In this document: positions 2,669-22,131 of the stretch, piece after piece | Layout: each line of letters opens with the position of its first letter | Numbering within the stretch: position 1 is the stretch's first letter | Assembly: GCF_000422785.1 (NCBI RefSeq) | Contig: NZ_AUGS01000005.1 | Coordinates: forward strand, 1 to 64,000 | DNA length: 64,000 bases | Direction: 5' to 3' | From: Pseudovibrio exalbescens DSM 16456 | GTDB lineage: Bacteria; Pseudomonadota; Alphaproteobacteria; Rhizobiales; Stappiaceae | Made by a program: the position numbers and the translations under genes | The notes under the pieces: model-generated | The model's input: only the letters and a program-made list of their open reading frames with translations | Told to the model about the DNA's origin: nothing | The model's database searches: none

Positions 2669-4029
2669 AAAAAAGTGACCTTCCCTTTGGCAGTGAGTTC
2701 TCTCCATCTCAAATTGAATTACGTGCTGTACTGGAGATGGCACAAACCCATGGTGGCGATTGGAAGTCTTTTGAGGAAGCCGTTCGCATTGCATATTTCG
2801 AAGACCATAATACCAGCGAATACAATCGCAAAAAACTCGCAAATAACACCAAGCTGGGCATGATAGCTTACGGGCTTATCGATAGAGAGGCTAACTTGAC
2901 CGATTTTGGTCAAGAACTATTCATGCTCAAGGACGACGAGGTTCGGCTTTACGAGCGGTTTGCAAAACATATCCTTTTGCACCTTCACGGGATGACGCTT
3001 GTTCGTTGCATTCAGGATATGGTGGCGGCAGGAGAAATCGTAAACCTGACCACGCTTAGGGAAGGTCTGGCGGCTCGGGGTGTTCACTACCCTTCTGGTG
3101 GAAAACATCCGAGCATGATGCGGCTTTGGCTTTCAAAAGCTGGGGTATTTGTTGGAAGCCGCTGGCAAGTCGATCCTTTCCGGACTGAAGCAATACTTGG
3201 CCTTAACCCGGACGAATTCGAAGTGTTGGCTGAGTTTACCTCTGAGCAACGTGCTTTTCTGCGCGCTTTGGCCAACACTGGAAAGATCGAGCCGCAACCG
3301 GCGAATGAGATTGCGAAACTCGCTGCGGCGACTTACGGCGTAAAGTTTCCAGAGAAGAGCCTGCCGAAGCTCGTGCTCAATGCCTTGGTAGATTCGGGTT
3401 ACATTTTCGTGGAGAAGACAACGTCCGGTCGCGGAGCAAAACCTTTCCATGTTGCGCCAACAAAAAAATTAATTGCCGATGTGGTTGAGCCGCTTCTAGA
3501 ACAGCTAAAGGGCCAAACCGACCCAAAGCTTTTGAAACTTTTGAGAACACCACTATCAGGAATTCTAGATGAACTCGAGGATGACAACCGTTACAAGGCC
3601 GGCTTAGCACTCGAAGCTCTAGCCTTCAAAATAATGCGCCTACTCGACATGACGTACGTAGCCACACGACTTCGAGCAAATCAGACTGGCGGAGCAGAAG
3701 TTGATTTGGTTTTTGAGAGTGCTCGCTTGGTGTTTTCACGTTGGCAAGTACAGTGCAAAAACACTGCAAGAGTCTCTCTTGATGATGTTGCCAAGGAAGT
3801 CGGTATCACACACTTTTTGAAAAGTAACGTTATAGTTATCGCTACAACTGGTGAAATTGGTGTCGAAGCACGCCGATACGCGAACAAGATCATGGCTGAT
3901 TCAAATCTTGCTATTGTAATGCTGAATGGTGCGGATCTTTTGGAGATTGGAGATCGTCCTACAACAATAATTAGGTCTTTCGAGCGCGAGGCAAGGCACG
4001 CTATGAACTTAAAAAAGCTTGAACTCTAA
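2665..4029 (+). CDS. Mrr-like PD-(D/E)XK restriction endonuclease
   Basis: The 454-residue protein has a C-terminal nuclease region. ALEALAFKIMRLL is the leading helix, GGAEVDLVF carries the likely metal-binding acid D347, and VQCKNT gives the Q363-x-K365 pair. This D...QxK form is typical of Mrr/type II endonucleases. The first 300 residues are helical and probably hold DNA-recognition winged helices (for example LTDFGQELFML and KLVLNALVDSGYIFVE followed by a basic turn). The gene overlaps the upstream CopG-like gene by 4 bp, and the N4-cytosine methylase follows 11 bp later, so this is the probable cutting partner of that methylase. The alternative is a modification-dependent type IV enzyme, since Mrr relatives can work that way. 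Cleavage specificity is unknown. Confidence 0.8.
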   Translation: MKKSDLPFGSEFSPSQIELRAVLEMAQTHGGDWKSFEEAVRIAYFEDHNTSEYNRKKLANNTKLGMIAYGLIDREANLTDFGQELFMLKDDEVRLYERFAKHILLHLHGMTLVRCIQDMVAAGEIVNLTTLREGLAARGVHYPSGGKHPSMMRLWLSKAGVFVGSRWQVDPFRTEAILGLNPDEFEVLAEFTSEQRAFLRALANTGKIEPQPANEIAKLAAATYGVKFPEKSLPKLVLNALVDSGYIFVEKTTSGRGAKPFHVAPTKKLIADVVEPLLEQLKGQTDPKLLKLLRTPLSGILDELEDDNRYKAGLALEALAFKIMRLLDMTYVATRLRANQTGGAEVDLVFESARLVFSRWQVQCKNTARVSLDDVAKEVGITHFLKSNVIVIATTGEIGVEARRYANKIMADSNLAIVMLNGADLLEIGDRPTTIIRSFEREARHAMNLKKLEL

Positions 4030-4040
4030 TGGAGGCGAAA

Positions 4041-5126
4041 ATGACAAAAACAAAGCCTCTGGCAACTTATCATGAAACAAATCTAGGGCGCATTTATCAC
4101 GCCGATAGCCTAGATGTGATGAAGCGCCAGGAGACTGAAACGGTAGATCTCATCATGACGAGTCCGCCATTCGCGCTGACTCGAAAAAAGGACTACGGCA
4201 ATGAGCAAGAAGACACTTATCTTGATTGGTTTCGAAATTTCGCGGTGGAGTTTCAACGCATCTTAAAAAAAGACGGTAGCTTAGTTATCGATTTGGGTGG
4301 CGCATGGAAACCTGGATTGCCGGTTCGAAGCCTATATCATTTTAAGCTGTTGATTATGCTATGTGAGGAGTACAATTTTCACCTAGCACAAGAATTCTAT
4401 TGGTGGAATCCTTCTAAGCTGCCTACACCAGCTGAATGGGTTAATGTTCGACGTATTCGCGTCAAGGATGGAGTGAATACTGTCTGGTGGCTGTCCAAGT
4501 CTCCTTGGCCTCGCGCAAGCAACAGGCGAGTTCTGCAACCTTACAGCGACAGTATGAAGACGCTATTGAGCAATGGCTATAAGGCAAAGATGCGTCCTTC
4601 TGGTCATGATATTAGCGATAAGTTCGCTATCGATAATGGTGCATCTATCCCGCCAAACCTGATCGCTATACCGAATACGGAAAGTAACAGTGGCTATCTG
4701 CGCTATTGTAAAGATAATTCTATCAAGGCTCATCCAGCACGGTTCCCTGCGGCGTTGCCTGAATATTTTATTCGCATGGTCACCGATCCTGACGACGTGG
4801 TACTCGACCCGTTCGCGGGCAGTTGTGTAACTGGAGAAGTTGCAGAACGTCTTGGACGGAAGTGGGTTTGCGCCGAACTAATAGAATCGTATCTTGAAGG
4901 TGCAAAAGGACGATTTGTTCAGAAGGTTGAGTTGCCAAAGGGAAAAGCTCAAAAGAACGATGAGAGTGGCTATTACCGCATCCCGCACCCTGGTTTGCTG
5001 TGGAATGGCGTTGATGAGCGAGATAGCGCGCCCCTTCCTGAGGATGGTGGCAGGCAGCGTCCGGCTAACATAAGTAAATCAAATGTTTGCAGGGACGACG
5101 TGACTATCATAAAAACAGCAGAATAG
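4041..5126 (+). CDS. Type II beta-class DNA methyltransferase, probably N4-cytosine
   Basis: TSPPFALTRKKDYGN near the start is motif IV, and DPFAGS near residue 260 is motif I. This permuted order defines beta-class enzymes. The TSPPF form with the following RKKDYGN is seen in PvuII-like N4-cytosine methylases, so C4 methylation is the best guess. The ATG at 4041 is preferred over the one at 4029 because GGAGG lies 5 nt upstream of it, giving 361 residues. The gene is 11 bp after the Mrr-like nuclease and 4 bp before the HNH nuclease. The enzyme should protect host DNA from one or both. Recognition sequence cannot be deduced. Confidence 0.88.
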   Translation: MTKTKPLATYHETNLGRIYHADSLDVMKRQETETVDLIMTSPPFALTRKKDYGNEQEDTYLDWFRNFAVEFQRILKKDGSLVIDLGGAWKPGLPVRSLYHFKLLIMLCEEYNFHLAQEFYWWNPSKLPTPAEWVNVRRIRVKDGVNTVWWLSKSPWPRASNRRVLQPYSDSMKTLLSNGYKAKMRPSGHDISDKFAIDNGASIPPNLIAIPNTESNSGYLRYCKDNSIKAHPARFPAALPEYFIRMVTDPDDVVLDPFAGSCVTGEVAERLGRKWVCAELIESYLEGAKGRFVQKVELPKGKAQKNDESGYYRIPHPGLLWNGVDERDSAPLPEDGGRQRPANISKSNVCRDDVTIIKTAE

Positions 5127-5130
5127 TGAA

Positions 5131-6150
5131 ATGCCCCGGTTAAAAAAATCTACACTTCTGAGGATTTTTGAAAGTGCGTTGCATAAAAGCGGAATAAGCT
5201 TCTTGCGATTATCATCTGAGATGGAGCATCCGGCCGTATATCAGCTTGTTAACTACGTAAACTCATTTCGTTTGCGTGTATATATCTGGAATCTTACTTT
5301 CGGCGGACGTATACAGCTTCCGGATGAATGGCGCATTCAAGTAACTGGATTACCTGTAGTTCGTGGCGGTCAACAATTCGTTCCAGACATTGGTGGAAAA
5401 ACGGTGATTCTTGGCTGGTGTGAGGAGTTGGAGGTTTTTGCAGCTTATGACATTAGGAAGCATCTTGGCATCCTTGGTGGTTCACCTTCGATTCAAATTC
5501 GGCAACCAGCTTTAGAAAAGGCGCGCATCAACGGTCTAGCCTCGCACTTCAAGGGGGAGGAAGAAGTTGCGTTTGCTATAAAGCCGTCCTATATGGCCGC
5601 GTATCTCGAAAATATGGAAGATTTACATGCCTGCGGATCTTCAGAGGAAGCGTTGAGAATCCTGGATGAAATTTGCAAAGATCCGAACAAAGTAAATGAA
5701 AAGGATATTCAAGATCACGTTCCTGAATTACGACGATGGGCAGTAGTCTCAACGAAAAAAGCTCTCCGCGATGCAAACTTCAAAGATCGCGTTTTAACAG
5801 CCTATTCACAAACGTGTGCTATGTGCGGCGTGCAACTTCGGCTTATCGACGCGGCGCATTTACTTCCAGCAGCGCATCCTGAAAGCACTGATGAGACGAG
5901 TAACGGAATTGCCTTGTGCGCTCTTCATCACCGTGCATTTGATTCAGCATTGGTAACGTTTGACGTTGATTACCGCATCCACCGTAACCTTTCAAAAGAA
6001 CGTGAGTTGGCGAACTCGGGTCTTGATGTAGGGCTTGCAGGGTTTTCTGAAAAATTGCTTCCTCAGATCAACTTACCCCAAAATCTCAAAGATCGGCCAT
6101 CTTCGAAGTATTTAGAGAAAGTCAATGCGATGAGAGGTTGGGCAGTCTGA
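5131..6150 (+). CDS. HNH endonuclease, restriction-type
   Basis: The 339-residue protein ends in an HNH nuclease domain: C229-x2-C232, then the DAAHLLPAAH segment with catalytic H243, then C263-ALHH with H266/H267 and RAFD. The four metal ligands and catalytic His are all present, so it should be active. The N-terminal 150 residues contain LPDEWRIQVTG, a segment I associate with predicted HNH restriction enzymes (COG3440-like) and likely involved in target recognition. It starts 4 bp after the methylase stop and runs in the same direction, forming a four-gene block with CopG, Mrr-like nuclease and methylase. It may be a second restriction subunit or an independent system. No clear ribosome binding site is seen, so coupling is likely. 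Confidence 0.87.
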   Translation: MPRLKKSTLLRIFESALHKSGISFLRLSSEMEHPAVYQLVNYVNSFRLRVYIWNLTFGGRIQLPDEWRIQVTGLPVVRGGQQFVPDIGGKTVILGWCEELEVFAAYDIRKHLGILGGSPSIQIRQPALEKARINGLASHFKGEEEVAFAIKPSYMAAYLENMEDLHACGSSEEALRILDEICKDPNKVNEKDIQDHVPELRRWAVVSTKKALRDANFKDRVLTAYSQTCAMCGVQLRLIDAAHLLPAAHPESTDETSNGIALCALHHRAFDSALVTFDVDYRIHRNLSKERELANSGLDVGLAGFSEKLLPQINLPQNLKDRPSSKYLEKVNAMRGWAV

Positions 6151-8883: not shown

Positions 8884-8973
8884 GGACACGTGGCCGAGTG
8901 GTCGAAGGCGCTCCCCTGCTAAGGGAGTAGGCCCGGAAGGGTCTCGAGGGTTCGAATCCCTCCGTGTCCGCCA
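8884..8973 (+). tRNA. tRNA-Ser (anticodon GCU)
   Basis: The 90-base gene folds as a class II tRNA: acceptor stem GGACACG pairing with CGTGTCC, D arm GGCCGAGTGGTCGAAGGC, anticodon loop with GCT between paired CTCCC and GGGAG, a long variable arm, and the T arm GGGTTCGAATCCC, with CCA encoded at 8971-8973. The GCU anticodon reads AGC and AGU serine codons. It marks the boundary between the accessory island on its 5' side and conserved sequence downstream. Confidence 0.97.
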
Positions 8974-9275: not shown

Positions 9276-9494
9276 ATCCCGCTCTAAAGCTGAAAACGAC
9301 TAACGCCCTATCTAGGGTGGGCTTATGGATGTCGAGGTCTGCAGCCCTTGAAAATTGCTTTTTATTTGCGTTTTGTAGCGTGCTTTCAATTTACTCCAAG
9401 TTAAATGTAGTTGAAGTTTTTTCTCCAATTGACATAGTTGAAGGCTAGAACGCTCATCATTGGCAAAAACCCGCCGGTTTGCTTGCCAGATGCG

Positions 9495-11018
9495 ATGCTC
9501 AGAGTGATGGATCAGACAGGGGCGCCGGTGAGAAAAGCCTTCGACATAGGAAACAAGGCAAGACCCCCTTGGGTATGGGTGGTGGTGTTTGGCGTTGCCT
9601 GTATCTTTATTGCAGGCGCTGCGAAGGCCAGAGAGCAAACATCGCTTTCCGTATTGACCCGAAATGGGCCAGCCATCGCGGGTCCCGCAGTGGTCCATGC
9701 CAATGCTTTTTCCCGTGATCATGAAACAACCGTGGTTGTTGACGTGGTTCACCTTGAGCATCTCTATGACGTGGTCATGGTGGATTTCCTTTCAGGCCGT
9801 CATCCCGCTGATGTACTTGTGATCCCGGCGACCTGGGTCCCGGATTTCGCCGCCTTTCTTTCTGATGTGCCCGCCTGGTTGATCCACGGGCCTCATGCCG
9901 GTGGCATCCACCCTGTGTACCGCCGAACGATGATGGGGTGGAACCAGCGCTGGCTTGGCGTAACGATTGACGGCGATCTGCAAATGGGCGTTTTTCGTCG
10001 TGACCTGTTTGACGATCCGCAAACGCGTGCTGACTTTGAGGCCGAGTTCGGGCGAACGCTTCAGCCGCCCCAGACGTGGCGGGAGTTCAATGAGCTGACG
10101 CGTTTCTTCAATGGCCGCCTTGATCCGTCGGGGCGGCCTTTGCTTGGCAGCCTAGAAGCCTTCAAGCAAGAGGATCAGGGGCTGTGGTCGTTCATCAGCC
10201 GCGCCGTTGCATATGGCAGCCATCCCAATTATCCCGGTGCATTTTTCTTTGATCCTGTAACCATGGAGCCGAGCATCAATTCTCCGGCCTGGAAGCGGGC
10301 TCTGGGCGAATACATGGAAGCGTTGAGCCATGGCCCCAATGAAGCGCGCTTCATGGGCGGCAATGATGTGCGCTATCGGTTCGCGGAAGGACATGCGGCG
10401 CTGGCCATCGGCTGGCAGGATATTGGGATTTTGGCTGCGGACTGGCCGTCGGCAATCGGGGCGGACAAGGTCGGTTTTTTTGCTCTTCCGGGAAGTCGCG
10501 AGGTCTGGAACCCGGTAACCGATCAGTGGAATGCCTTGCCTCGTGCGCGCTCTGTACCGTACCTGGCCTTTGGTGGATGGGTCGCCGTTGTTCCGGTCTC
10601 GACCAAGGATCGGAACCTGGCCTGGTCGTTCGTTGCCGAGTTCGGATCGCCGGAAAACAGCGCTCTTGATACCAAGGTTGGCGTTAGCGGCATCAATCCG
10701 TACCGCGCTGCGGAACTGACGAACATTGAAGGGTGGCAGGCTGTTCTCGGGGAGGAGGGGGCTCAAACCTATCTAGACATCAACAGGCAGGCCTTGAATG
10801 ATCCAGCCCTTGTTGCCGAGCTGCGATTGCCCGGATATCAGGCCTACATGGAGGCCCTGACCCATCAGGTGGAGCGTGCGCTCAACGGCATGATCAGTGT
10901 GGATCAAGCGTTGGATACTGCAGCGGCTCAATGGGAGCAGATCACGGATCGTTTGGGGCGTGACAGCCAGCGCCGGCACTACCAAGATGCAATTGGATAT
11001 ATGGAGAGCGAGCCGTGA
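9495..11018 (+). CDS. Family 1 extracellular solute-binding protein, coupled to a sensor
   Basis: The protein (507 residues from the ATG at 9495) has a signal peptide (WVWVVVFGVACIFIAGAAKA) and resembles periplasmic sugar-type solute-binding proteins: a PADVLVIP strand-turn in the first lobe, PPQTWREFNEL, a segment around FAEGHAALAIGWQD, and SVPYLAFGGWVAVVP in the second lobe. No ABC permease or ATPase for it lies next door. Instead its stop overlaps the start of a TorS-like hybrid sensor by 4 bp, so the likely job is to carry ligand information to that receptor, as TorT does for TorS. The start is uncertain (TTG at 9438, ATG at 9495 or 9507) because no strong ribosome binding site stands out. 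Ligand unknown. Confidence 0.82.
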   Translation: MLRVMDQTGAPVRKAFDIGNKARPPWVWVVVFGVACIFIAGAAKAREQTSLSVLTRNGPAIAGPAVVHANAFSRDHETTVVVDVVHLEHLYDVVMVDFLSGRHPADVLVIPATWVPDFAAFLSDVPAWLIHGPHAGGIHPVYRRTMMGWNQRWLGVTIDGDLQMGVFRRDLFDDPQTRADFEAEFGRTLQPPQTWREFNELTRFFNGRLDPSGRPLLGSLEAFKQEDQGLWSFISRAVAYGSHPNYPGAFFFDPVTMEPSINSPAWKRALGEYMEALSHGPNEARFMGGNDVRYRFAEGHAALAIGWQDIGILAADWPSAIGADKVGFFALPGSREVWNPVTDQWNALPRARSVPYLAFGGWVAVVPVSTKDRNLAWSFVAEFGSPENSALDTKVGVSGINPYRAAELTNIEGWQAVLGEEGAQTYLDINRQALNDPALVAELRLPGYQAYMEALTHQVERALNGMISVDQALDTAAAQWEQITDRLGRDSQRRHYQDAIGYMESEP

Positions 11019-13711
11019 GGTCATTGGGTGTACAGGCCAAATTGCTGCTCATTCTCGCTGTTGCTGGTGGGGCTGTTCTGCTCGCCATCGCCATAGCCGT
11101 CTGGACCATGTTTGCGTTGCGAGGGGATGTAAAACAGGTCACGGAAACAGAGTTGCCCAAAGCGGCCAGCGCCCTGCGTTTGGCACGGATTGGGGAGCGG
11201 TTGCAGCGGCGAGGGGAAAGCCTGGTCGTTGCACGCAACAGAAACGACAGAGACACAATCCAGTCTTTGATTGGGGTAGATCTGGCTGCCATGCGAAGTG
11301 AGCTGATAGCGTTGCGCGATGTTTTGCCGACAGATCGCAGCGGCGAGGAGGCGATTGTGGCCTATTCGACCCAGTTGGCGGAGGAACTGACAGCGCTACG
11401 CTCTGGACTTGAGCGCCAGACAGCCTTGGAAGAGCTGTTGGTGGATCGTCGAGAAGCGTTGTTGAGGCGTGAAGAACAAATCCAGCAAGCGCTCGGCCCG
11501 CCACTGCTGGCGGTATCCTCCATCTTGAGCCGGGTCAACCAGCCTGCTCCGGAACAGGTCACCCGATTTGCAGTTCAAAACCAAGGGGCCTTGATTGATA
11601 CCGAGCGCCATTTGAAAGCGGCGATTGTTCAGATCCTGCTGACAGAGCGGGCAACTTCGCCGCAGAACGTTCGGGATCGGCTTAATCAGTACCGGCGGAT
11701 CATGAGCCAACTGGAGGTTGCTGTCTCGCAGTTGCCTTCAGGTCTGCAGCAGGCGGTCGTGGTGGACCTGCCGTTCTTTCGAGGACAGTTGGCGGCCAAC
11801 GGCTTTTTTGACATCAAGTTTGATGTGTTGCGCAGTCTTTCCTTGTTGCAGGCGTTTCTGGAGTCCACGCGCGCCACCGCAGACGATCTGAAGCGTGCCG
11901 TTGATCAGTTCATTGCGCGTGACCGCGAGGCCATTGCAGGGGCAACAGAGCGAATTACGACCTCATTCGCTCAGCAAACGCTGCAATATCTCATCGGCTC
12001 CGTTCTTGTTGTCTCGCTTCTCATCTTGTCGGCCTATCTAATGTATATCCGCCCGCTTGGTCAGCAGATCGTGGGCGTGAGTTCCGCTATGCGCCGCTTG
12101 GCGGACGGTGACGGCAAAGTAGTGCCGCCCGGACTGGACCGCACAGACGAGGTGGGGGAGCTGGCGCGATCCTTCATGGTGTTCAAGGATGCCATCTCTC
12201 AGCTTGAAGTCATGGATAAGGAGTTGGCGGAGCAGTCGCGGCTGATGGTTGCGACACTGGACAACATGAATGACGGATTTACCGTTTTTGATTCCGATGG
12301 GAACCTTTTGGCCTTCAATCCGCGTTTTCTTGACATCTACGGCTTGTCAGCTGCTTTTATCGAGCAAGGAACGCCGATAAAGCGCATTCACATGGCATTG
12401 GCGCGCAATGGTGTGCGGGTGTTTGCTGCTAATGGTCAAGAGGTGGGGTTCAGTAGCTTGCGTCATGACCGAGGCCGGTTGAACAAGCGCTATGAACTGC
12501 ATCTACCCTCGGGCCATGTCATCGAACTGCGGAGTAATCCTGTGCCCGGTGGTGGTTTCGTTACCCTGCACATGGACATGACTGAACGCGTTGCCACGCA
12601 GAACCGGGTCTGGCATGCACGGAAAATTGAAACCATCAGCCAGCTGACAACTGGTGTCGCGAGCGAATTGAACACCCTGCTTGCCGTTGTACTGGGCAAT
12701 TTGAGATTGCTTGAACGAAGCGCCGGCGCCGTTAATCCCGAGTTGAAGAGTCGGGCGCTCAGCGGTATTGCCGCTGGCGTGCGAGCTGCACACCATGTGG
12801 CGCGGCTTCAGGCGTTTTCTCGCAAACACAAGTCAGAGCCGGGCTTTGTGGATCCGGCCACGGTTATTGAGGACTTGTGGCATTTGCTCTCTTACATGGT
12901 GGGGCCAGACATCCAGTTGAGCGTCGATTGCGATGAGCAACCTCTCGGCATTCATGTGGACCGGGGGCTGTTGGAGACGGCCATACTGAACCTTGCCATC
13001 AACGCCCGAGAGGCAATTACTGGGGAGGGCATGCTGCGTATCTCTGTTTCTGCTGCGGCTCACGACAAAGTGCTTCTGGAGGTTCAAGACAGCGGCAAGG
13101 GCATGCCGACACATATTTTGCGAGCCTTGGCGGATCCGCAAGCGAGTTTGCGACCAGCCGAACATGGTGTCGGTTTTGGGTTGAGCATGGTTTATGCCTT
13201 TGTGGCGCAGGCAGGCGGCACCATTGATATTACCAGCGAAGATGGGCAGGGCACCGAGGTGCGGATCTGGTTTGACCGTGTTGAGCGCCCGGACATGCCC
13301 GCCCGCACGGACGCGCAGGTGCCTCTTGGTAACGGGGAAACTGTTCTGGTTGTTGATCGGGACCCGGCGCTGCTTGAGGTGAATTGTGCTCTGCTGGAAG
13401 AACTGGGTTACAAGGTTTTAACGGCTACTAGTGGGGACGCGGCCATGGTGTTGCTGGGCTCCCATCCCGAAATATCGATGCTCTACAGCGAGGTGGAGTT
13501 GCCTGCGCCCTGGACGGGCGGTAAACTGGCGGAAGCGGCAATCGCTCAGGTGCCGCGCTTGTCGGCAGTGCTTGTCAGTGCAGAACCATGGCAGCGGAAC
13601 ACCTGCAATTTCAGATGCTTGATAAAACCGGTTGCAGTGGCTGATCTTGCTGCGGCCTTCCGTGATGCGCTCGGCGAGCCGGTTACTTCACAAACTGCAA
13701 GAAATTCATAG
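11015..13711 (+). CDS. TorS-like hybrid sensor, degenerate histidine kinase (pseudokinase)
   Basis: The 898-residue inner-membrane protein has a first membrane helix (about 7-33), a long helical periplasmic region, a second helix (322-345), HAMP, one PAS domain (about 405-520), a dimerisation region, an ATPase domain and a receiver. The dimerisation helix reads GVASELNTLL where relatives have GVAHDFNNLL, so the phosphoacceptor His is Ser550. The ATPase boxes look usable (AINAREA, DSGKGM, GFGLSM). The receiver has YSEVELP where TDVVMP is usual, giving Glu826 instead of Asp, and DRD instead of an acidic pair. The GTG start overlaps the solute-binding protein stop, with GGAGAG upstream. It may signal allosterically or dimerise with another kinase. 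Confidence 0.85.
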   Translation: MRSLGVQAKLLLILAVAGGAVLLAIAIAVWTMFALRGDVKQVTETELPKAASALRLARIGERLQRRGESLVVARNRNDRDTIQSLIGVDLAAMRSELIALRDVLPTDRSGEEAIVAYSTQLAEELTALRSGLERQTALEELLVDRREALLRREEQIQQALGPPLLAVSSILSRVNQPAPEQVTRFAVQNQGALIDTERHLKAAIVQILLTERATSPQNVRDRLNQYRRIMSQLEVAVSQLPSGLQQAVVVDLPFFRGQLAANGFFDIKFDVLRSLSLLQAFLESTRATADDLKRAVDQFIARDREAIAGATERITTSFAQQTLQYLIGSVLVVSLLILSAYLMYIRPLGQQIVGVSSAMRRLADGDGKVVPPGLDRTDEVGELARSFMVFKDAISQLEVMDKELAEQSRLMVATLDNMNDGFTVFDSDGNLLAFNPRFLDIYGLSAAFIEQGTPIKRIHMALARNGVRVFAANGQEVGFSSLRHDRGRLNKRYELHLPSGHVIELRSNPVPGGGFVTLHMDMTERVATQNRVWHARKIETISQLTTGVASELNTLLAVVLGNLRLLERSAGAVNPELKSRALSGIAAGVRAAHHVARLQAFSRKHKSEPGFVDPATVIEDLWHLLSYMVGPDIQLSVDCDEQPLGIHVDRGLLETAILNLAINAREAITGEGMLRISVSAAAHDKVLLEVQDSGKGMPTHILRALADPQASLRPAEHGVGFGLSMVYAFVAQAGGTIDITSEDGQGTEVRIWFDRVERPDMPARTDAQVPLGNGETVLVVDRDPALLEVNCALLEELGYKVLTATSGDAAMVLLGSHPEISMLYSEVELPAPWTGGKLAEAAIAQVPRLSAVLVSAEPWQRNTCNFRCLIKPVAVADLAAAFRDALGEPVTSQTARNS

Positions 13712-14171: not shown

Positions 14172-14969
14172 GTGATCCAATTTGAGGCCGTTAGAAAAGA
14201 GTTCGGAAACCACGTTGCTGTCAAGGGTGCGTCCTTCACAGTCGACAAGCCCCAGATGATCGGCATCATTGGCCGCTCGGGCGCTGGTAAATCGACGCTC
14301 TTGCGCATGATCAATCGTCTGACGCCGGCGACCTCCGGACGCATTCTTGTCAACGGACGCGATATTTTGGCCCTCAAAGGCAAGGAAAAGCGACGTTGGC
14401 AGCGCGATTGCGCCATGATCTTCCAGCAGTTCAATCTGGTGCCGCGCCTTGATGTGCTGACAAATGTCATGCTCGGGCGATTGAACGATCATGGCACAGT
14501 GACAAGTTGCTTGAAGCTGTTCACCAAGGAAGAGCGCATGCAGGCGCTTTTGAAATTGGAGCGTTTGGGCATCGCGGAAACCGCGTTGAAGCGGGCCGAG
14601 CACTTGTCTGGTGGGCAGCAGCAGCGCGTGGCGATTGCCCGGGCGCTCATGCAAAGCCCTGAGATGTTGCTGGCAGACGAGCCCATTGCGTCTCTTGACC
14701 CTATGAATGCGCAGGTGGTGATGGATGCGCTGAAAGCGATCAACACCGAAGACAAACTTACTGTCATCTGCAATCTGCACACCCTCGATACCGCCCGCAA
14801 ATACTGTGACCGTGTAATCGGCATGCTGCATGGCGAAATCGTCTTCGACGGTCGGCCGGACAGCCTGACCACGGACGTGGCGCGGGAGATTTACGGTGCT
14901 GATGACAGTTTTTCCGAAGCAACCACTTCTACTGCCCTGAACGTTGGAGCAACGTCAGCGGTAGCGTGA
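14172..14969 (+). CDS. phnC: Phosphonate/phosphate ABC transporter ATPase PhnC
   Basis: This 265-residue ATPase drives import of phosphonate, phosphite or phosphate. It has Walker [10 protein letters not shown], the Q-loop IFQQFNL, the signature [15 protein letters not shown], Walker [13 protein letters not shown] and a switch His in NLHTLD. These features and the length match PhnC. It begins a run of phnC, phnD and two permease genes in the same direction. In Sinorhizobium the equivalent set, PhoCDET, carries phosphate as well as phosphonates, so phosphate uptake is a realistic alternative to phosphonate use; no C-P lyase or phosphonatase gene is seen here. The GTG start has AGGA upstream, and a possible Pho box lies before it. 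Confidence 0.93.
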
Positions 14970-15062
14970 TGGCCGACCCGCAGGTCACTGAATGCGGGAA
15001 CGCACGCCTTGGCAAGAGGCAGATAATTGACTTGTCGTTGAGTTAACTTGGAGAGCTTACCA

Positions 15063-15992
15063 ATGAACTTCGCTGCTAAACTCGCTGCAGTTGCCGCTGT
15101 CAGCGTGGCTGCCCTCGGTTCGTCCGGTGCCCTTGCGCAGGACTCCACCATCACTGAATTCCGCATCGGCCTGCTGGGCGGTGAGAACGAAGCAGACCGT
15201 CTGCGCAACAACCAGTGCCTGGTTGACCGTTTTGAAGAGCTGCTGGGCGTTCCAGTGAAGCTGTTCCCGGCAGCTGACTACGCTGGCACCATTGAAGGTC
15301 TCAAGGGCGGTAACCTGGACTACGCCGAGCTGGGCGCATCCGGTTACGCAGCTATTTACCTGGCCGATCCGGAAGCTGTTGAGCCGGTTCTGACCACCAA
15401 GCAGGTTGATGGCGCAACTGGTTACCACTCCATCATGGTATCCCGTTCCGACTCCGGCATCGAAACTCTGGAAGACATGAAGGGCAAGCGTCTGGGTTAC
15501 GCTGACCCGAACTCCACTTCCGGCTACCTTGTTCCTTCCGTTGCTTTCGACAAGATGGGCATCAATGCGGATGAGTACTTCGCCTCCGCTACTTTCTCTG
15601 GTGGTCACGAGCAGAACGTTCTGGCTGTTGTGAACGGCGACGTTGATGGCGGTGTTACCTGGTCTTCCGGCGTTGGTGAGTGGGAAGAAGGCTACACTTC
15701 CGGCAACCTGCGCAAGATGGTTGACAAGGGCATGATCGACATGACCCAGCTCAACGAAGTATGGCGCTCTCCGCTGATCCCGAACGGTCCACTGGTTCTG
15801 CGCAGCTCCCTGCCACAGGACGTGAAGGAAAAGATCATCGCTTCCTTGAAGGATATGGTTCAGGACGATCCAGAGTGCTTCTACTCCGCACAGGCTGGTG
15901 AATACGCTGACTACGTCGAAGTTGACCACTCCTTCTACGAAACCATCGTTGAAGCGCGTCGTCGCAAGATCGAAGCTGCAAAAGCCAACTAA
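15063..15992 (+). CDS. phnD: Periplasmic phosphonate/phosphate-binding protein PhnD
   Basis: The 309-residue protein starts at ATG 15063, with GGAGAG about 8 bases upstream, and has a signal peptide ending ALA-QD. The mature part fits PhnD: FRIGLLGGEN, ELLGVPVKLFPAADYAG, GNLDYAELGASGYA, and a DPNSTSGYLVP segment, which in this family contacts the phosphonate group. It delivers substrate to the PhnE permeases. Strong bias for a small set of codons compared with its neighbours points to high expression, and a hairpin directly after the gene could keep its transcript more abundant than that of the permeases. Confidence 0.93.
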   Translation: MNFAAKLAAVAAVSVAALGSSGALAQDSTITEFRIGLLGGENEADRLRNNQCLVDRFEELLGVPVKLFPAADYAGTIEGLKGGNLDYAELGASGYAAIYLADPEAVEPVLTTKQVDGATGYHSIMVSRSDSGIETLEDMKGKRLGYADPNSTSGYLVPSVAFDKMGINADEYFASATFSGGHEQNVLAVVNGDVDGGVTWSSGVGEWEEGYTSGNLRKMVDKGMIDMTQLNEVWRSPLIPNGPLVLRSSLPQDVKEKIIASLKDMVQDDPECFYSAQAGEYADYVEVDHSFYETIVEARRRKIEAAKAN

Positions 15993-16005
15993 TCATTCTT
16001 GAGGT

Positions 16006-16034
16006 AGCGCCGCGTTTCTCGCGGCGCTCCTTTT
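16006..16034 (+). terminator. Intercistronic hairpin between phnD and phnE
   Basis: A perfect 9-bp GC-rich stem, AGCGCCGCG at 16006-16014 and CGCGGCGCT at 16020-16028, has a 5-base loop followed by CCTTTTG. The short T-run suggests partial termination or 3'-end protection of the phnC-phnD message rather than a full stop, since the permease genes continue in the same direction. Confidence 0.65.
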
Positions 16035-16080
16035 GTATCTGGCCTTGCGAGGCCAACTTTGTGTTTTCAGGAGGTTTCCG

Positions 16081-16953
16081 GTGGCTCTAGTCAATGCGTT
16101 CAACGCATCGCCCCACCTTGCCGAAATTGAAAAGGACTACGAACGCGTAGCCCGCCAGCGCACGACCTACACCTTCTTGTTGCTGCTGGTTTGTACCATT
16201 TCCATATTCGGCGGCTTTTATGTGGCAGAGGAAGCGAACTCGGGCAGCTTCTGGGGAGGGCTAAGCAGTTTCTGGGACTATCCCTATGATATCTTTGCAG
16301 GAGCCTATGAGCGGGGGTGGGGGTTGTTTTCACTGGCAGCCAAATACTTCCCCTATCTGGTGGAAACCATCAATATCGCCATCGTCTCGACCCTGATCGG
16401 CTTCTTCTTCAGTTCGATCCTGAGCTTTTTTGCCAGCCGCAATCTGATGACCAATTCTCTGGTCGTCATGGTCGTGCGCCGTTTTCTGGACGTTACCCGT
16501 GCGTTTCCGGAGCTGGTCATTGCCTTGCTGTTGGTACTTATTTTCGGGCCATCACCATTGGCGGCAATCATGGCCGTGACGTTCCATACCATTGGCGCGC
16601 TGGGCAAACTCTTTTCCGAGAGCAACGAAAACGCAGACATGAAAGCCGTTGAGGGCTTGCGGTCCGTCGGTGCGAACTGGGTGGAGCAGATGCGTTTCGG
16701 TATCTTGCCGCAGGTTTTGCCGAACTTCTTTTCCTATGCGTTGTTGCGACTTGAGATCAATGTGCGCGCCTCGGCCATTCTGGGCTTTGTAGGTGCGGGT
16801 GGTCTGGGTGCGGAACTCAAGATGGTGGTGGACTGGAATTACGGCGCCGACATCTTCGTGATCATTCTGATGTTGGTGTGTGCCATTACCGCCATTGACT
16901 ATTTCTCCAGCTGGGTGCGCCACAAGCTTGTGGGCGCGACCGGTACACTCTAG
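16081..16953 (+). CDS. phnE: Phosphonate/phosphate ABC permease PhnE (first subunit)
   Basis: The GTG at 16081 is chosen because CAGGAGG lies just before it, giving 290 residues, the usual PhnE length. One membrane helix near residue 30 is followed by a block of several helices from about residue 95. The cytoplasmic EAA-type loop that meets the ATPase is seen as FSESNENADMKAVEGLRSVGA followed by a FGILPQVLP segment. It should pair with the second, larger permease 12 bp downstream to form a heterodimeric channel driven by PhnC. The spacing to phnD is about 90 bp and contains a hairpin. Confidence 0.92.
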   Translation: MALVNAFNASPHLAEIEKDYERVARQRTTYTFLLLLVCTISIFGGFYVAEEANSGSFWGGLSSFWDYPYDIFAGAYERGWGLFSLAAKYFPYLVETINIAIVSTLIGFFFSSILSFFASRNLMTNSLVVMVVRRFLDVTRAFPELVIALLLVLIFGPSPLAAIMAVTFHTIGALGKLFSESNENADMKAVEGLRSVGANWVEQMRFGILPQVLPNFFSYALLRLEINVRASAILGFVGAGGLGAELKMVVDWNYGADIFVIILMLVCAITAIDYFSSWVRHKLVGATGTL

Positions 16954-16965
16954 GGGCTGAACTTC

Positions 16966-18321
16966 ATGGTAACTGTTAGCGGTTTTGAACAGGCCCGGTT
17001 GGAAGACCAGTACGCGGGCGTCATTGAACGCCCCTTGGCTCAACGCCTCATCGCGCCTGGTGTTGTCATTGCAATTCTCGGATATCTGGTGATTTGCTTC
17101 TTTGCCTTCGATGTGCCGGGCGTGTTGAACAAGGCGCGGATGGATATGGCACAGCTGTATGCGCTGGATTCCTATGCCCACAAGGATCACGCCAAGCTTT
17201 CATTCCGCAAGGCTGATGAGGGGTTTGAACTGTCGCTGGAAGGAACGCGTCGGGCACGCTACGACACGCCGCCTGCTTGGTTCCAGAGCAACGGCGCGGA
17301 AAGCCGGATTGATCTGGCCGGCGATGGTATCGTCGCCTTTGATGGCCAATCCATTGTCACCTACACCCATCCTGACTATGACGAGCCGTTCCGGTTCCGT
17401 GTGGGCGGCGGAGACTATCCGGTCTATCTGGGCAGTGTTACGCCGGAGTGGTTGGGGGATAGTGGCAAGCAAATTGATGCGCGCCCAAGCCTTTACAGCC
17501 GCATTTGGATCACGCGCAGCAAGATTGAGGTTCACCGCTACGAAAATGGCTGGGAGAACTTCTGGTTTGGTTTCAACTCGCCCTTGAGTGGGATGAGTAT
17601 TGGCCAATTGACATCGCTAGCCATGTCCAGCGATCGCATCGAGCCGGAGATGTCCAACCTTAGCTTCATTGCCTCGGAGTTCTGGAACAACCCGGAATGG
17701 CAGCATGGTGACATTTTCTATGCCTTGCTTCAGACGCTGATCATGGCTGTGGTTGGCACCTTGGTTGCCGGCATCATTGCTCTGCCGCTGGCCTTTGCAG
17801 CCGCCGCAAATGTAAATCCGTTGAGGGGCGTAAGATTTGGGCTGCGCCGAATTTTCGACTTCCTGCGCGGTGTTGATACCCTGATCTGGTCGCTGATCTT
17901 CATCCGGGCGTTTGGTTTGGGACCTCTGTCCGGTACGTTTGCCATTATCTTCACCGACAGTGGTACGTTCGGCAAGCTGTTTTCAGAGGCTATTGAGAAC
18001 GCAGACCGGCGTCAGGCGGAAGGGGTACAGGCCACCGGTGCCTCACCAATCCAGAAGTACCGTTTTGGTGTGTTTCCTCAGATCCTGCCGCTTTTCGTAT
18101 CGCAGATGCTGTATTTCCTGGAGTCGAACACTCGATCGGCGACGGTCATTGGTGCGCTGGGCGCTGGTGGCATCGGTCTGAAGTTGCTTGAAACGATGCG
18201 GACCCGTCAGGATTGGGAAAACACGGCCTACATTATTGTGCTGGTAATTGGTCTTGTGATCCTGATGGACAACATGTCCGGCTGGCTGAGGCGCAAACTG
18301 ATCGGCGATACCGAAGGCTGA
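16966..18321 (+). CDS. phnE: Phosphonate/phosphate ABC permease PhnE (second subunit, long form)
   Basis: This 451-residue permease has the PhnE core in its C-terminal half, including FSEAIENADRRQAEGVQATGA followed by FGVFPQILP (the EAA loop) and an IGALGAGGIG segment. Between its first helix (about 25-45) and the core lies a soluble region of roughly 190 residues that should be periplasmic. Long second permeases of this type are known from Rhizobiales PhoT-like proteins, so this is likely an order-specific feature rather than a fusion error. The extra part might hold the binding protein or sense substrate. It starts 12 bp after the first permease and ends before a hairpin terminator. Confidence 0.9.
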   Translation: MVTVSGFEQARLEDQYAGVIERPLAQRLIAPGVVIAILGYLVICFFAFDVPGVLNKARMDMAQLYALDSYAHKDHAKLSFRKADEGFELSLEGTRRARYDTPPAWFQSNGAESRIDLAGDGIVAFDGQSIVTYTHPDYDEPFRFRVGGGDYPVYLGSVTPEWLGDSGKQIDARPSLYSRIWITRSKIEVHRYENGWENFWFGFNSPLSGMSIGQLTSLAMSSDRIEPEMSNLSFIASEFWNNPEWQHGDIFYALLQTLIMAVVGTLVAGIIALPLAFAAAANVNPLRGVRFGLRRIFDFLRGVDTLIWSLIFIRAFGLGPLSGTFAIIFTDSGTFGKLFSEAIENADRRQAEGVQATGASPIQKYRFGVFPQILPLFVSQMLYFLESNTRSATVIGALGAGGIGLKLLETMRTRQDWENTAYIIVLVIGLVILMDNMSGWLRRKLIGDTEG

Positions 18322-18507: not shown

Positions 18508-21500
18508 ATGGATCCCAATTGTTGTTCTGCTCCCATGGCTACCGAGCGCAAGCCTCGGAGTTACCTGCTTTGGCTGTTGGGCGGGGCCGGAACGATTGTC
18601 TTGATGTTGGTTTTGCAGCTGGTCACCTTGTCCCTCGTTCAAAACTACACGCAGGAACGGGCCTATCGGGCGCTGTTGGACACCATGCGCTCAGAGCTGC
18701 TGGTCGCATTTCATGTCGTGGCTGATCAAGGCACCTTGCCCCGTTTTTTGACGCGACTTGAGGATGAAGACGGCCTGTCAGTCTCCACGACTGAGGGGCT
18801 TTTGACGATCCACTCTTACCCGGTGGATTTGGAGGTGCTTGAACGGGAAGGTCATTTGCTTTTGGACGGCGAGGTCTACGAGCCTTTGGAAGGGTTTCAT
18901 CTACACAGGGAAGATGTATTTGATCGGCTGCTCGGTCACAGTCACCCGCACAGTCATGGTGATCGGTTGTTTCTGCCGGCTGTCATGCCCCTGGTTGTTC
19001 TGGAACGGCAACTGGCTGAACGGATCAACACCAGCCTGCGATTTTTCTATCACATGGGCGGTGAAGACAGCGCGACTTCCTTGTCCGTTGCGGTAGTGTT
19101 GCCACTTCGTGAACCCATAGCCATTGCCATTACAGACCGCATCGCTGGGCAGGTTCAGTGGGAAAAAGAGCAGAACGCCCTGTTTATCCTCTTTGGGCTT
19201 TCCTACTTGCTGATCGGCCTGGCAGGCTATGCACTTTATCGGAACAAGATTTTGCAAAGTGAAAGTGCGCTTGAGCAACTTGACGCGCAATGTGATCTTA
19301 AAAATCAGCAGTTGGAGGCGCGTGCCGAAGAGGCGCGCTACAGGGAGACGCAGCTCAAAGCCTTGCTCAGCAGTGTCAGCGACGCCATTTTGACGGTGGA
19401 TGGACAAGGCGTGATCCAAACAGCCAATCGGGCGGCCTTGGGCTTGTTTCGCAGTGATGTGGATGGTTTGATCGGCACGCCTCTCGTGGATCGCATTCGC
19501 CCTGAAACCGTGCATTTGCCTGCGTTGTTCTCCGATGGGTTCACGGAAGAGCAGGAGGCAAGCCTTTTCGCAAGGCGCCATCAATTCGATTATACCCACA
19601 GCAATGGCGAGATCAGCCATTTGGAATTGCGGCTGAGTGACTTCTATTTGCGTGACGGACGTTATTTTGCATGCCTTCTGCGCGATGTCACAGAACAGGT
19701 AACGGCTCAAGAAGAAGCGCGGCGGGCTCAGAACCAGCTGTGGCAAGCCATCAGTCACTTGCCCGACGCCTTCGTGCTCTATGATGCCGATGATCGGCTG
19801 CTGATATGCAATGAGCGCTATCGCGAGCTCTACAAGACCAGCGGCGACTTGTTCGAAATCGGGAACACCTTTGAATACATCGTGCGAACGGGCGCGGAGC
19901 GCGGCCAGTATGATCTGGACGGCATGAGCGTGGATGAATGGGTGGCCGACCGCATGGCGCGTCACCAGCTTAGTGAAAGCGAGGTCATCCAGTTGCTCAA
20001 TGACGGTACATGGGTGCGGGTAACCGAGCGGCGGACACCTGACGGTATGACCGTTGGTTTTCGAAGCGATATCACTGAACTCAAACAGCAGGAGGAGGCT
20101 GTCAAAGCACGGGAAGAGGAACTGCGATCCATTATTGCCACTGCAATGGACGCGATTGTTGGGGTTGATGCCAATGACCGCATCATTGAGTTCAACCGCG
20201 CAGCGGAGGCTCTGCTTGGCTACAAGCGTGAAGAGGTGCTTGGCAAAGAAGCCCACCGCCTGTTGTTGCCGAAAGAAGAATGGTCGCGCTACTTTATGGT
20301 GATGAGCGCATTGAAGCGCTCAACCTCCCCTGAATCCGCCGGAAATCGTCGTGAAGGGGTTGTGCTTGACCGCGCCGGCGAAAAACTGCCGGTCGACATC
20401 TCCATGAATGCGGCGGTGCTGTCTACTGGATCACGCTTTTATTTCTTCCTGCATGACATTCGCAGCCGCAAGCGCGCTGTTGAGGATCTGACCCGTGCGA
20501 AAGAAAACGCAGAGGCGGCCGCCAGAACAAAGACTGCGTTCCTTGGCATGATGAGCCATGAGATCCGTACGCCGCTAAGTGCTGTGATTGGCTTTCTGCG
20601 CATGTTGGAGACTGATCAGCTGGATGACCAGCAGCGCACTTATGTCAACACGTCGCTTGAATCTGCTGAGGCTCTTCTGGGTATCCTGAATGACATTCTG
20701 GAGCTGTCCAGGCTCGAAGCGGGCCAATCCGAGGCCAAGCGAGAGGTGGTCAACCTGCGCCACTTGATCGAGCAGGTGCGAGACTTGCTTTTGCCGCGTG
20801 CTCAGGAAAAAGAGTTGTCGCTGACAATTGACATGGCTGAGGATGTACCTGAGGACCTGATGACAGACAGTGGCCGGGTTCGTCAGATACTGATCAATCT
20901 GACAAATAACGCCCTCAAGTTTACCGATCAAGGCGGCGTGACGATCCGGGCGGAAAGCGCTGGGTTGACACAAGATGGTCTGTGTTCGCTGCGTCTGTCC
21001 GTTATTGACACAGGTGTCGGCATTGCACCTGAGCATCAAAGAACGATTTTCTCCCATTTCTCCCGCACACCGTCGGCGCAGGCGTCGGACCCAACCGGGG
21101 TGGGATTGGGGCTGGCAATCAGCAAAGAGCTGGTCGAGGGGCTGGGCGGGCACATTGGTCTGCAATCCGCCGAAGGCGTGGGAAGCGTTTTCTGGGTGGA
21201 GTTGGAGGTATCCCTACCGCCGAAAAATCTGGCAAGTCCCACTCGTTCTCAAAAGGCGCCCGAGACACCAGCCGTCGCGGCTGGGGACATGCACTTCCTG
21301 GTGGCGGAAGACAACGCGCCCAATCGCATGGTGTTGCGCAAGATGCTGGAGGCATTTGGTGCCAAGGTTACGGAAGCCGAAAACGGCCGACAAGCCATTG
21401 ATTACCTGACTGACCCTGACGAAGATCCCGTGGACGCTGTGTTCATGGATGTTTCCATGCCGGTCCTGGATGGTATTTCGGCCACACGCGCCTTGCGTGA

Positions 21501-22131
21501 TCGTCACGATCTGTTGGCCTCCATCCCCGTAATCGGTTTGACCGCACACACGTCCAAAGAAGATCACGACTTGATGTATGCGGCCGGTTTCACGCGTGTT
21601 CTCACCAAACCGATTTCTCGGGAGAAGCTGGAACACGCATTGCAGGACCTTATGGCCCGATTGGGCGGGCTTGCAAGCGGCCAGCCCGGTGCGCCTTCTC
21701 TTGCCAAGGTCTATCAACTGCCAGTTCGCCCCCATTCTGGTCCAGTGCCACCTGTGGTCACACTTCCACAAACAGGGAGCGGAACGAGCGGAGAGGCGGG
21801 CAGTGTGCGCCTTGAAGATTGTCTCATCCGGTGCCGCACGTTGATGCAAGCGCCAACCATGAACAAGGCTGATGTGGAAGACCTCTGTACTGACGTTTAC
21901 ACATTGTGCGCCCAGCTTGAAGCTGAGGGCGTTCGCCTTATCGCTGAACAGCTTTCTGATGATTGCTGGGAAGCGGTGAGCGCCGACGAGGAGAGTTTGG
22001 CTGGCGAAAAAGCGGATTTGTGCCGTCAGTCTTTATATACGCTTGCCAAGGCCCTGGAACAGTTTCGGTCGCGTCTTCCCGACACTGATGAAGATGTGGA
22101 ATCGCCGCCGGATCAGTCTCGAGCGACCTAG
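18508..22131 (+). CDS. Hybrid sensor histidine kinase with three PAS domains and a His-rich sensor loop
   Basis: The 1207-residue protein has a membrane helix at about 22-44, a periplasmic sensor domain, a second helix at 224-246, a coiled coil, three PAS domains (each beginning with an LLSSVSDAI, ISHLPDAFV or IATAMDAIV type helix), HisKA with MSHEIRTPL and intact H684, an ATPase domain (NLTNNALKF, DTGVGI, GLGLAIS) and a receiver with D981 in FMDVSMP and the KP near its end. About 200 further residues follow, with no clear Hpt His. The periplasmic region carries GHSHPHSHG at 143-151, a likely metal site. It sits 186 bp after the phn operon and may control it. ATG 18535 is an alternative start. 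Confidence 0.9.
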   Translation: MDPNCCSAPMATERKPRSYLLWLLGGAGTIVLMLVLQLVTLSLVQNYTQERAYRALLDTMRSELLVAFHVVADQGTLPRFLTRLEDEDGLSVSTTEGLLTIHSYPVDLEVLEREGHLLLDGEVYEPLEGFHLHREDVFDRLLGHSHPHSHGDRLFLPAVMPLVVLERQLAERINTSLRFFYHMGGEDSATSLSVAVVLPLREPIAIAITDRIAGQVQWEKEQNALFILFGLSYLLIGLAGYALYRNKILQSESALEQLDAQCDLKNQQLEARAEEARYRETQLKALLSSVSDAILTVDGQGVIQTANRAALGLFRSDVDGLIGTPLVDRIRPETVHLPALFSDGFTEEQEASLFARRHQFDYTHSNGEISHLELRLSDFYLRDGRYFACLLRDVTEQVTAQEEARRAQNQLWQAISHLPDAFVLYDADDRLLICNERYRELYKTSGDLFEIGNTFEYIVRTGAERGQYDLDGMSVDEWVADRMARHQLSESEVIQLLNDGTWVRVTERRTPDGMTVGFRSDITELKQQEEAVKAREEELRSIIATAMDAIVGVDANDRIIEFNRAAEALLGYKREEVLGKEAHRLLLPKEEWSRYFMVMSALKRSTSPESAGNRREGVVLDRAGEKLPVDISMNAAVLSTGSRFYFFLHDIRSRKRAVEDLTRAKENAEAAARTKTAFLGMMSHEIRTPLSAVIGFLRMLETDQLDDQQRTYVNTSLESAEALLGILNDILELSRLEAGQSEAKREVVNLRHLIEQVRDLLLPRAQEKELSLTIDMAEDVPEDLMTDSGRVRQILINLTNNALKFTDQGGVTIRAESAGLTQDGLCSLRLSVIDTGVGIAPEHQRTIFSHFSRTPSAQASDPTGVGLGLAISKELVEGLGGHIGLQSAEGVGSVFWVELEVSLPPKNLASPTRSQKAPETPAVAAGDMHFLVAEDNAPNRMVLRKMLEAFGAKVTEAENGRQAIDYLTDPDEDPVDAVFMDVSMPVLDGISATRALRDRHDLLASIPVIGLTAHTSKEDHDLMYAAGFTRVLTKPISREKLEHALQDLMARLGGLASGQPGAPSLAKVYQLPVRPHSGPVPPVVTLPQTGSGTSGEAGSVRLEDCLIRCRTLMQAPTMNKADVEDLCTDVYTLCAQLEAEGVRLIAEQLSDDCWEAVSADEESLAGEKADLCRQSLYTLAKALEQFRSRLPDTDEDVESPPDQSRAT

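Follow-up and report, generated by a model that had tools for sequence, protein, structure and literature searches.

A putative pseudo-histidine kinase encoded beside phosphonate transporter genes in Pseudovibrio exalbescens

The locus and its receptor gene

The window analysed here is a stretch of 64,000 nucleotides from Pseudovibrio exalbescens DSM 16456 (contig NZ_AUGS01000005.1, positions 1 to 64,000). It carries a gene for a solute-binding protein (SBP), a gene for a protein resembling a hybrid histidine kinase (HK), and a set of phosphonate ABC transporter genes (Table 1). The kinase-like reading frame starts with GTG and encodes 898 amino acids without an internal stop. The end of the SBP gene overlaps its start by four bases (GTGA).

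Table 1. Positions of the genes and key residues in the window.
Feature	Position	Strand	Basis
Solute-binding protein (SBP_bac_1), 526 aa by longest ORF	9438..11018	+	Pfam PF01547, 30.5 bits vs cut-off 26
Hybrid histidine-kinase-like receptor: membrane and helical sensor part, HAMP, PAS_7, DHp, CA, receiver	11015..13711	+	ORF, Pfam, low-confidence model for secondary structure
Ser550 (AGC) in place of phosphoacceptor His	12662..12664	+	Sequence and alignments
E-x-x-T kept (Glu551-Leu-Asn-Thr554), fits E/DxxT/N motif	12665..12676	+	Sequence; motif from PMC10723718
N-box Asn663, kept	13001..13003	+	Sequence, alignment
Lost F-box/ATP lid: ADPQASLR, residues 706-713	13130..13153	+	Alignment: FEPFFTTK or close variant in 16 other proteins
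Acidic-pocket residue Arg782	13358..13360	+	Alignment: Asn in G008, Asp in paralogue and both Thiorhodococcus proteins
Receiver phosphoacceptor place Glu826	13490..13492	+	Alignment: Glu also in G008, Asp in 14 other aligned receivers
Phosphonate ABC transporter genes phnC, phnD, phnE, phnE	14172..18321	+	NCBIfam TIGR02315, TIGR03431, TIGR01097 twice, over cut-off

Two other regions of the window were recognized around these genes. Positions 4029-6150 encode a DNA methylase (N6_N4_Mtase) followed by an MTaX1 and HNH protein, an arrangement like that of restriction-modification systems, 2.7 kb upstream of tRNA-Ser (8884-8973); this region may be a mobile island. Downstream of phnE, positions 18508-22131 encode another hybrid kinase (L114), with HisKA at 70 bits, Response_reg at 78 bits and the H-E pattern. 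It keeps its place in the congener genome G008, with about 53% identity across the fetched part.

In the window protein, HAMP, PAS_7 and HATPase_c were matched by Pfam at E<=0.001, and neither HisKA nor Response_reg was found at this threshold. HisKA is present by Pfam in all four other full-length members of the family (31-36 bits). Response_reg exceeds its cut-off in three of those four and falls just under it in the G008 protein (26.9 vs 30.2). The HATPase_c score is 63.4 bits in the window protein against 75-90 in four relatives. Among solved structures, 5idj (described as CckA DHp-CA) is the best relative of the kinase core (E 3.5e-25), and the DivL structure 4q20 ranks eighth of 17 (E 2.8e-8). 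The TIGR02956 match, which bears on the comparison with TorS-type kinases, lies within the catalytic part and reaches 89.6 bits against a cut-off of 676.5. Two structure predictions of the window protein are both of low confidence (mean pLDDT 65.6 and 55.8). Foldseek searches with the predicted structure returned histidine-kinase and related phytochrome-type folds among the 50 matches listed, in which the TorS sensor is absent.

Residues lost from the kinase core and the receiver

Positions 12659-12667 read GCG AGC GAA and encode Ala549-Ser550-Glu551. The substitution of Ser for the acceptor His, reported in an earlier note made from the sequence alone, is confirmed: residues 547-556 read GVASELNTLL, and the Ser550 column contains His for all 26 distinct relatives in one MAFFT alignment and for all 8 additional ones in another. 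These 34 relatives are the best matches fetched, a subset of the matches in the genomes searched. Sequencing error is an unlikely source of Ser550, since turning a His codon into AGC requires two or more substitutions and the protein has lost its F-box too.

The earlier note further described the ATP-binding boxes as preserved. This holds for the N, G1 (DSGKG) and G2 (GVGFG) boxes but not for the F-box/ATP lid, which is missing only in the window protein among 17 aligned proteins (16 with a receiver) and reads INPFFTTK in G008. With the lid replaced, normal ATP handling appears doubtful, and so does the suggestion that the receptor phosphorylates a partner in trans. The loss of the phosphoacceptor Asp of the fused receiver had been missed. 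An active hybrid kinase would have the acceptor His in its H-box, complete N, G1, F and G2 boxes, and an Asp in its receiver; the window protein departs from this at Ser550, at the replaced F-box, and at Glu826 and Arg782. It is very likely unable to autophosphorylate. A kinase-like DHp and CA fold, as judged from sequence and the low-confidence models, is combined with lost catalytic residues, as in a pseudo-histidine kinase.

That the protein is still a kinase, with phosphate accepted by His593, His594, His605, His533 or Ser550 or with a partner phosphorylated in trans, is highly improbable. In its favour, His593, His594 and His605 are absent from the five other sequences of one alignment, but all three fall outside the H-box, within the second DHp helix or at its end. 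His533 is also found in the paralogue, whose normal acceptor is present, and the losses in the F-box and at the receiver acceptor place speak against any of these routes.

In HisKA kinases, the E/DxxT/N motif is tied to phosphatase activity (PMC10723718). Within the E-x-x-T of the window protein, Glu551 is already present in G008, and Asn to Thr554 is the sole new change.

Other kinases of the genome were surveyed through their HATPase_c matches, the best 30 of 35 being read. One of these 30 is CheA-type, two are gyrase-B-type, and 27 were read as HisKA-type from the H-box pattern or from alignment. The acceptor His is present in 25 of the 27; 24 of these show the H-E/D pattern at the expected distance, and one (L115) matches HisKA and has an H-D variant of the pattern. 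The two His-less proteins among these best 30 are the window protein, with Ser, and L100 (contig 2, about 340600-342500), which has Tyr at the acceptor place and DivL 4q20 as its best solved relative.

Relatives, gene neighbourhoods and rates of change

The closest relatives of the window protein are the same-locus protein of G008 (43% identical), a paralogue on contig 11 of its own genome (42%), and two Thiorhodococcus proteins (38%) whose loci were found by a pattern scan of genome contigs. All of these have His at the acceptor place, and the cross-genus class of pseudokinase receptors envisaged earlier is not supported. A conserved Ser-type class is ruled out among the 34 relatives examined, and the dead form is known from one species only. 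Among the outcomes that would refute its proposal, the earlier note named orthologues with His, which would mark the change as strain-specific. The His of the relatives goes part of the way towards that outcome, but Ser550 is one of several losses in the core and no lone stray mutation.

The G008 locus has the order SBP, HK, phnC, phnD, phnE, phnE, as in the window. The window SBP shares 52% identity with its counterpart at the G008 locus and 49% with the SBP encoded next to the paralogue. The SBP and kinase genes (9438-13711), 52% and 43% identical to those of G008, thus adjoin phn genes (14172-18321) that are 85-94% identical (94, 92, 89 and 85%). Either the SBP and kinase genes have evolved very rapidly, or the pair diverged before the phn genes did. 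Synonymous divergence does not serve as a clock here: at 4-fold sites, the phn genes of the window and G008 differ by 0.28-0.62, but HK and SBP by 0.69, which is near saturation.

In the kinase tree, the window and G008 kinases are grouped (98/97), with a window branch of 1.12 vs 0.65, and the long window branch was flagged by the tree program. The alternative groupings of the paralogue with the window kinase (p-AU 0.031) or with the G008 kinase (p-AU 0.016) are rejected only modestly, and the window-G008 pair is less supported in the SBP tree (93/92). The two kinases share place and tree grouping, yet may not be strict orthologues.

The G008 kinase (L031, 5872-10154, comprising the G008 SBP and kinase) keeps the His and the ATP lid and has Glu at the receiver acceptor place and Asn in the acidic pocket. 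It appears to represent an intermediate stage. Since the receiver changes are partly common to this congener, the losses are likely stepwise. The simplest and likely order is that the receiver changed first, in the common ancestor of the window and G008 loci, and that the His and the ATP lid were lost later in the window lineage.

The paralogous locus (L032, contig 11, 973-11143) retains all motifs and lies beside PTS genes (EIIBC-type, PfkB, EIIA-HPr-EI fusion); the ORFs upstream match PTS enzymes and the PfkB sugar kinase. At this locus and the Thiorhodococcus loci, SBP and kinase genes are accompanied by a converging gene for an OmpR-type regulator, with one gene between in T. drewsii, and the PTS-adjoining SBP-kinase-regulator order of L032 recurs in both Thiorhodococcus loci. 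Profile searches and reading of the loci found no regulator gene beside the window or G008 kinase. Neither the rest of its own genome (G000) nor G008 encodes another protein close to the regulator of the paralogue (43% and 44% for the next best matches), and G008 likewise lacks a close counterpart of the paralogue itself.

Relatives of the receptor are few at strict thresholds, the window's own genome being included in each count. Full-length members were found in 2 of 16 genomes of the genus (E<=1e-70). At E<=1e-80, matches were found in 5 of 87 genomes of the taxonomic family, three of which match only about residues 266-895, in 6 of 397 at order level, and in 3 of 398 at phylum level. No match was found in 350 genomes of the class of G803 at E<=1e-95, a search that lacked a positive control and shows little, or among PLSDB plasmids at 1e-60. 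SBP relatives were found in 11 of 385 class genomes (E<=1e-60), and an ABC-ATPase-like ORF matching phnC is present in 6 of the 10 loci read.

The rarity of the family, found in two of the 16 genus genomes at E<=1e-70, the missing regulator gene and the erosion of the core raise the possibility of decay under way: an orphan copy, no longer adjoined by a regulator gene as the paralogue and Thiorhodococcus kinases are, whose receiver and then core drift unselected towards eventual loss of the gene. This is a serious rival to a functional pseudokinase, though the less likely of the two, and the distribution of changes along the protein bears on it. Changes were counted at outgroup-invariant columns, where the paralogue and the two Thiorhodococcus proteins all agree. 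Window-only and G008-only changes number 9 and 12 in the sensor, 6 and 6 in HAMP, and 7 and 8 in PAS, against 15 and 1 in DHp (p=5e-4), 28 and 9 in CA (p=0.003), and 6 and 2 in the receiver (p=0.29). The excess in the core is robust to four outgroup sets and to removal of the H, F and G2 boxes (p 2.5e-4 to 8.1e-3). On a fixed tree, the window and G008 branch lengths are 1.50 vs 0.37 in the core (about four times) and 1.63 vs 0.69 in the receiver, compared with 0.70 vs 0.65 in the sensor, 1.06 vs 0.91 in HAMP, and 0.44 vs 0.60 in PAS. The sensor and PAS do not share the acceleration of the core, which speaks against decay. The SBP is mildly accelerated (branch 0.77 vs 0.54; changes 39 vs 21, p=0.027); this and the long receiver branch would be compatible with a wider relaxation and count in favour of decay.

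The kinds of residue that changed point in both directions. Radical changes in the window core affect 5 of 52 hydrophobic and 27 of 74 other invariant positions (p=7e-4), so that the polar residues of the core are eroded, as decay would have it, but the hydrophobic core is mostly kept. Outside the core, the corresponding counts are 10 of 97 and 9 of 89. The same contrast is seen in the active G008 core (0 of 52 hydrophobic, 8 of 74 other); it is therefore an old constraint mostly kept and gives no sign of new function. In a neutral simulation starting from the G008 core, 16, 3 and 0 of 300 runs remained stop-free at 25, 34 and 45% changed for residues 531-end, and 46, 24 and 9 of 300 for residues 531-756. 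The simulation speaks against neutrality but is simple and rough. Codon-position GC is constant throughout the core, so the coding pattern is intact. The kept hydrophobic core and the open frame of 898 codons favour a folded pseudokinase over simple decay. The claim of selection for a non-classical role receives only indirect support, from these two features and from the unaccelerated sensor and PAS.

Possible role and comparison with known systems

The window protein may be a lineage-specific pseudo-histidine kinase that acts in trans, through docking or heterodimer formation, on the contig 11 paralogue or its OmpR-type regulator; we consider this reading about evenly balanced between right and wrong. 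The ancestor would have been a normal SBP-linked hybrid kinase, as at the paralogue and Thiorhodococcus loci, whose regulator gene no longer adjoins it. Its receiver would have been altered first, from Asp to Glu, and the acceptor His and ATP lid would have followed, with sensor, HAMP, PAS and the hydrophobic core positions retained. The adjacent SBP would bind a ligand that the periplasmic part of the receptor still reads, and the signal would reach a DHp platform that no longer phosphorylates but still dimerises or docks. It could then act on the active paralogue by forming a heterodimer with the kinase or by docking its regulator, possibly with some phosphatase action through the kept E-x-x-T. 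The paralogue and its regulator are, as a guess, the most natural partner, although G008 has nothing closely matching either. For the window protein we infer inactivity, SBP-linked sensing and retained binding, as well as a partner and a direction of effect.

Phosphatase action is doubtful, because DivL lacks it, the ChrS pseudokinase is reported to be defective in it, and a single residue of the motif, Thr for Asn, is a novelty of the window protein, its Glu551 being already present in G008. Docking or heterodimer formation appears likelier, given the precedents of ChrS, DivL and RocA. A more specific version, in which a ligand-controlled antagonist was made stepwise and sequesters or dephosphorylates the OmpR-type regulator of the active paralogue beside fructose-type PTS genes, is improbable; its chances are reduced by the lack of phosphatase action in both DivL and the ChrS pseudokinase.

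The pseudokinase might instead work through another partner, such as the canonical hybrid kinase at 18508-22131, and couple the sensing of the SBP ligand to phosphonate uptake. The intact HisKA, Response_reg and H-E pattern of that kinase and its same place in G008 are consistent with such a coupling, and DivL working with CckA offers a precedent. The link to this kinase is one of adjacency, however. Among congeners, 11 have phnD; the phn loci of 7 others were read, and in none of the 7 does the receptor adjoin phnC. A pattern search gave no Pho-box-like site near phnC, the whole window having 5 matches with <=3 mismatches vs 5.5 by chance. We give this coupling only a small chance.

The G008 kinase, with its His and ATP lid, and the in-cell paralogue, with all motifs and its regulator, form a before-and-after set for testing the conversion of a kinase to a modulator and the order in which phosphotransfer sites are lost. 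If the gene is only decaying, it is a neat but ordinary case. Few pseudo-histidine kinases were retrieved in the literature searches, which gave no source naming the genus or the window protein and no match for an EnvZ H243V query. Dead sensor kinases are already known, and the window case looks like a local new instance, not a new class.

In the TorT-TorS type, a periplasmic binding protein is paired with a hybrid kinase, and TorS is an active phosphorelay kinase. The window locus has the same pairing, with a hybrid kinase that is probably inactive. DivL has a role in cell-cycle control and is not known to have an SBP partner or a receiver; RocA is not known to have an SBP, PAS or receiver.

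DivL of Caulobacter has Tyr550 for His and is reported to show weak ATP binding and neither kinase nor phosphatase activity (PMC4211667). Like the window protein, it has a HisKA-type core with the acceptor His replaced, and its DHp is kept as a docking platform. The window protein does not belong to the DivL family, as defined by kinship and Tyr at the acceptor: it has Ser, its core is nearer to CckA, and its genome holds the separate DivL-like L100. A pseudokinase variant of ChrS from Corynebacterium glutamicum acts through the paralogous HrrS and is phosphatase-defective; heterodimers of ChrS and HrrS were seen for the native forms and not for the truncated one (PMC9491836). As a kinase-dead member of a paralogous two-component pair that alters signalling of the paralogous kinase, it resembles the role proposed here. 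In ChrS, however, a frameshift that arose during laboratory evolution removed the CA domain, seemingly together with phosphatase action, whereas the window protein is a hybrid kinase linked to an SBP and its losses are natural, residue by residue. A third case, RocA of group A Streptococcus, is a membrane pseudokinase acting through the sensor kinase CovS; unlike the window protein, it keeps its own histidine, H246, which is dispensable, and it has six predicted membrane spans (PMC7028121). Compared with these systems, what is new here is a single-lineage case in which the fused receiver has lost its Asp as well and the sensor is linked to an SBP.
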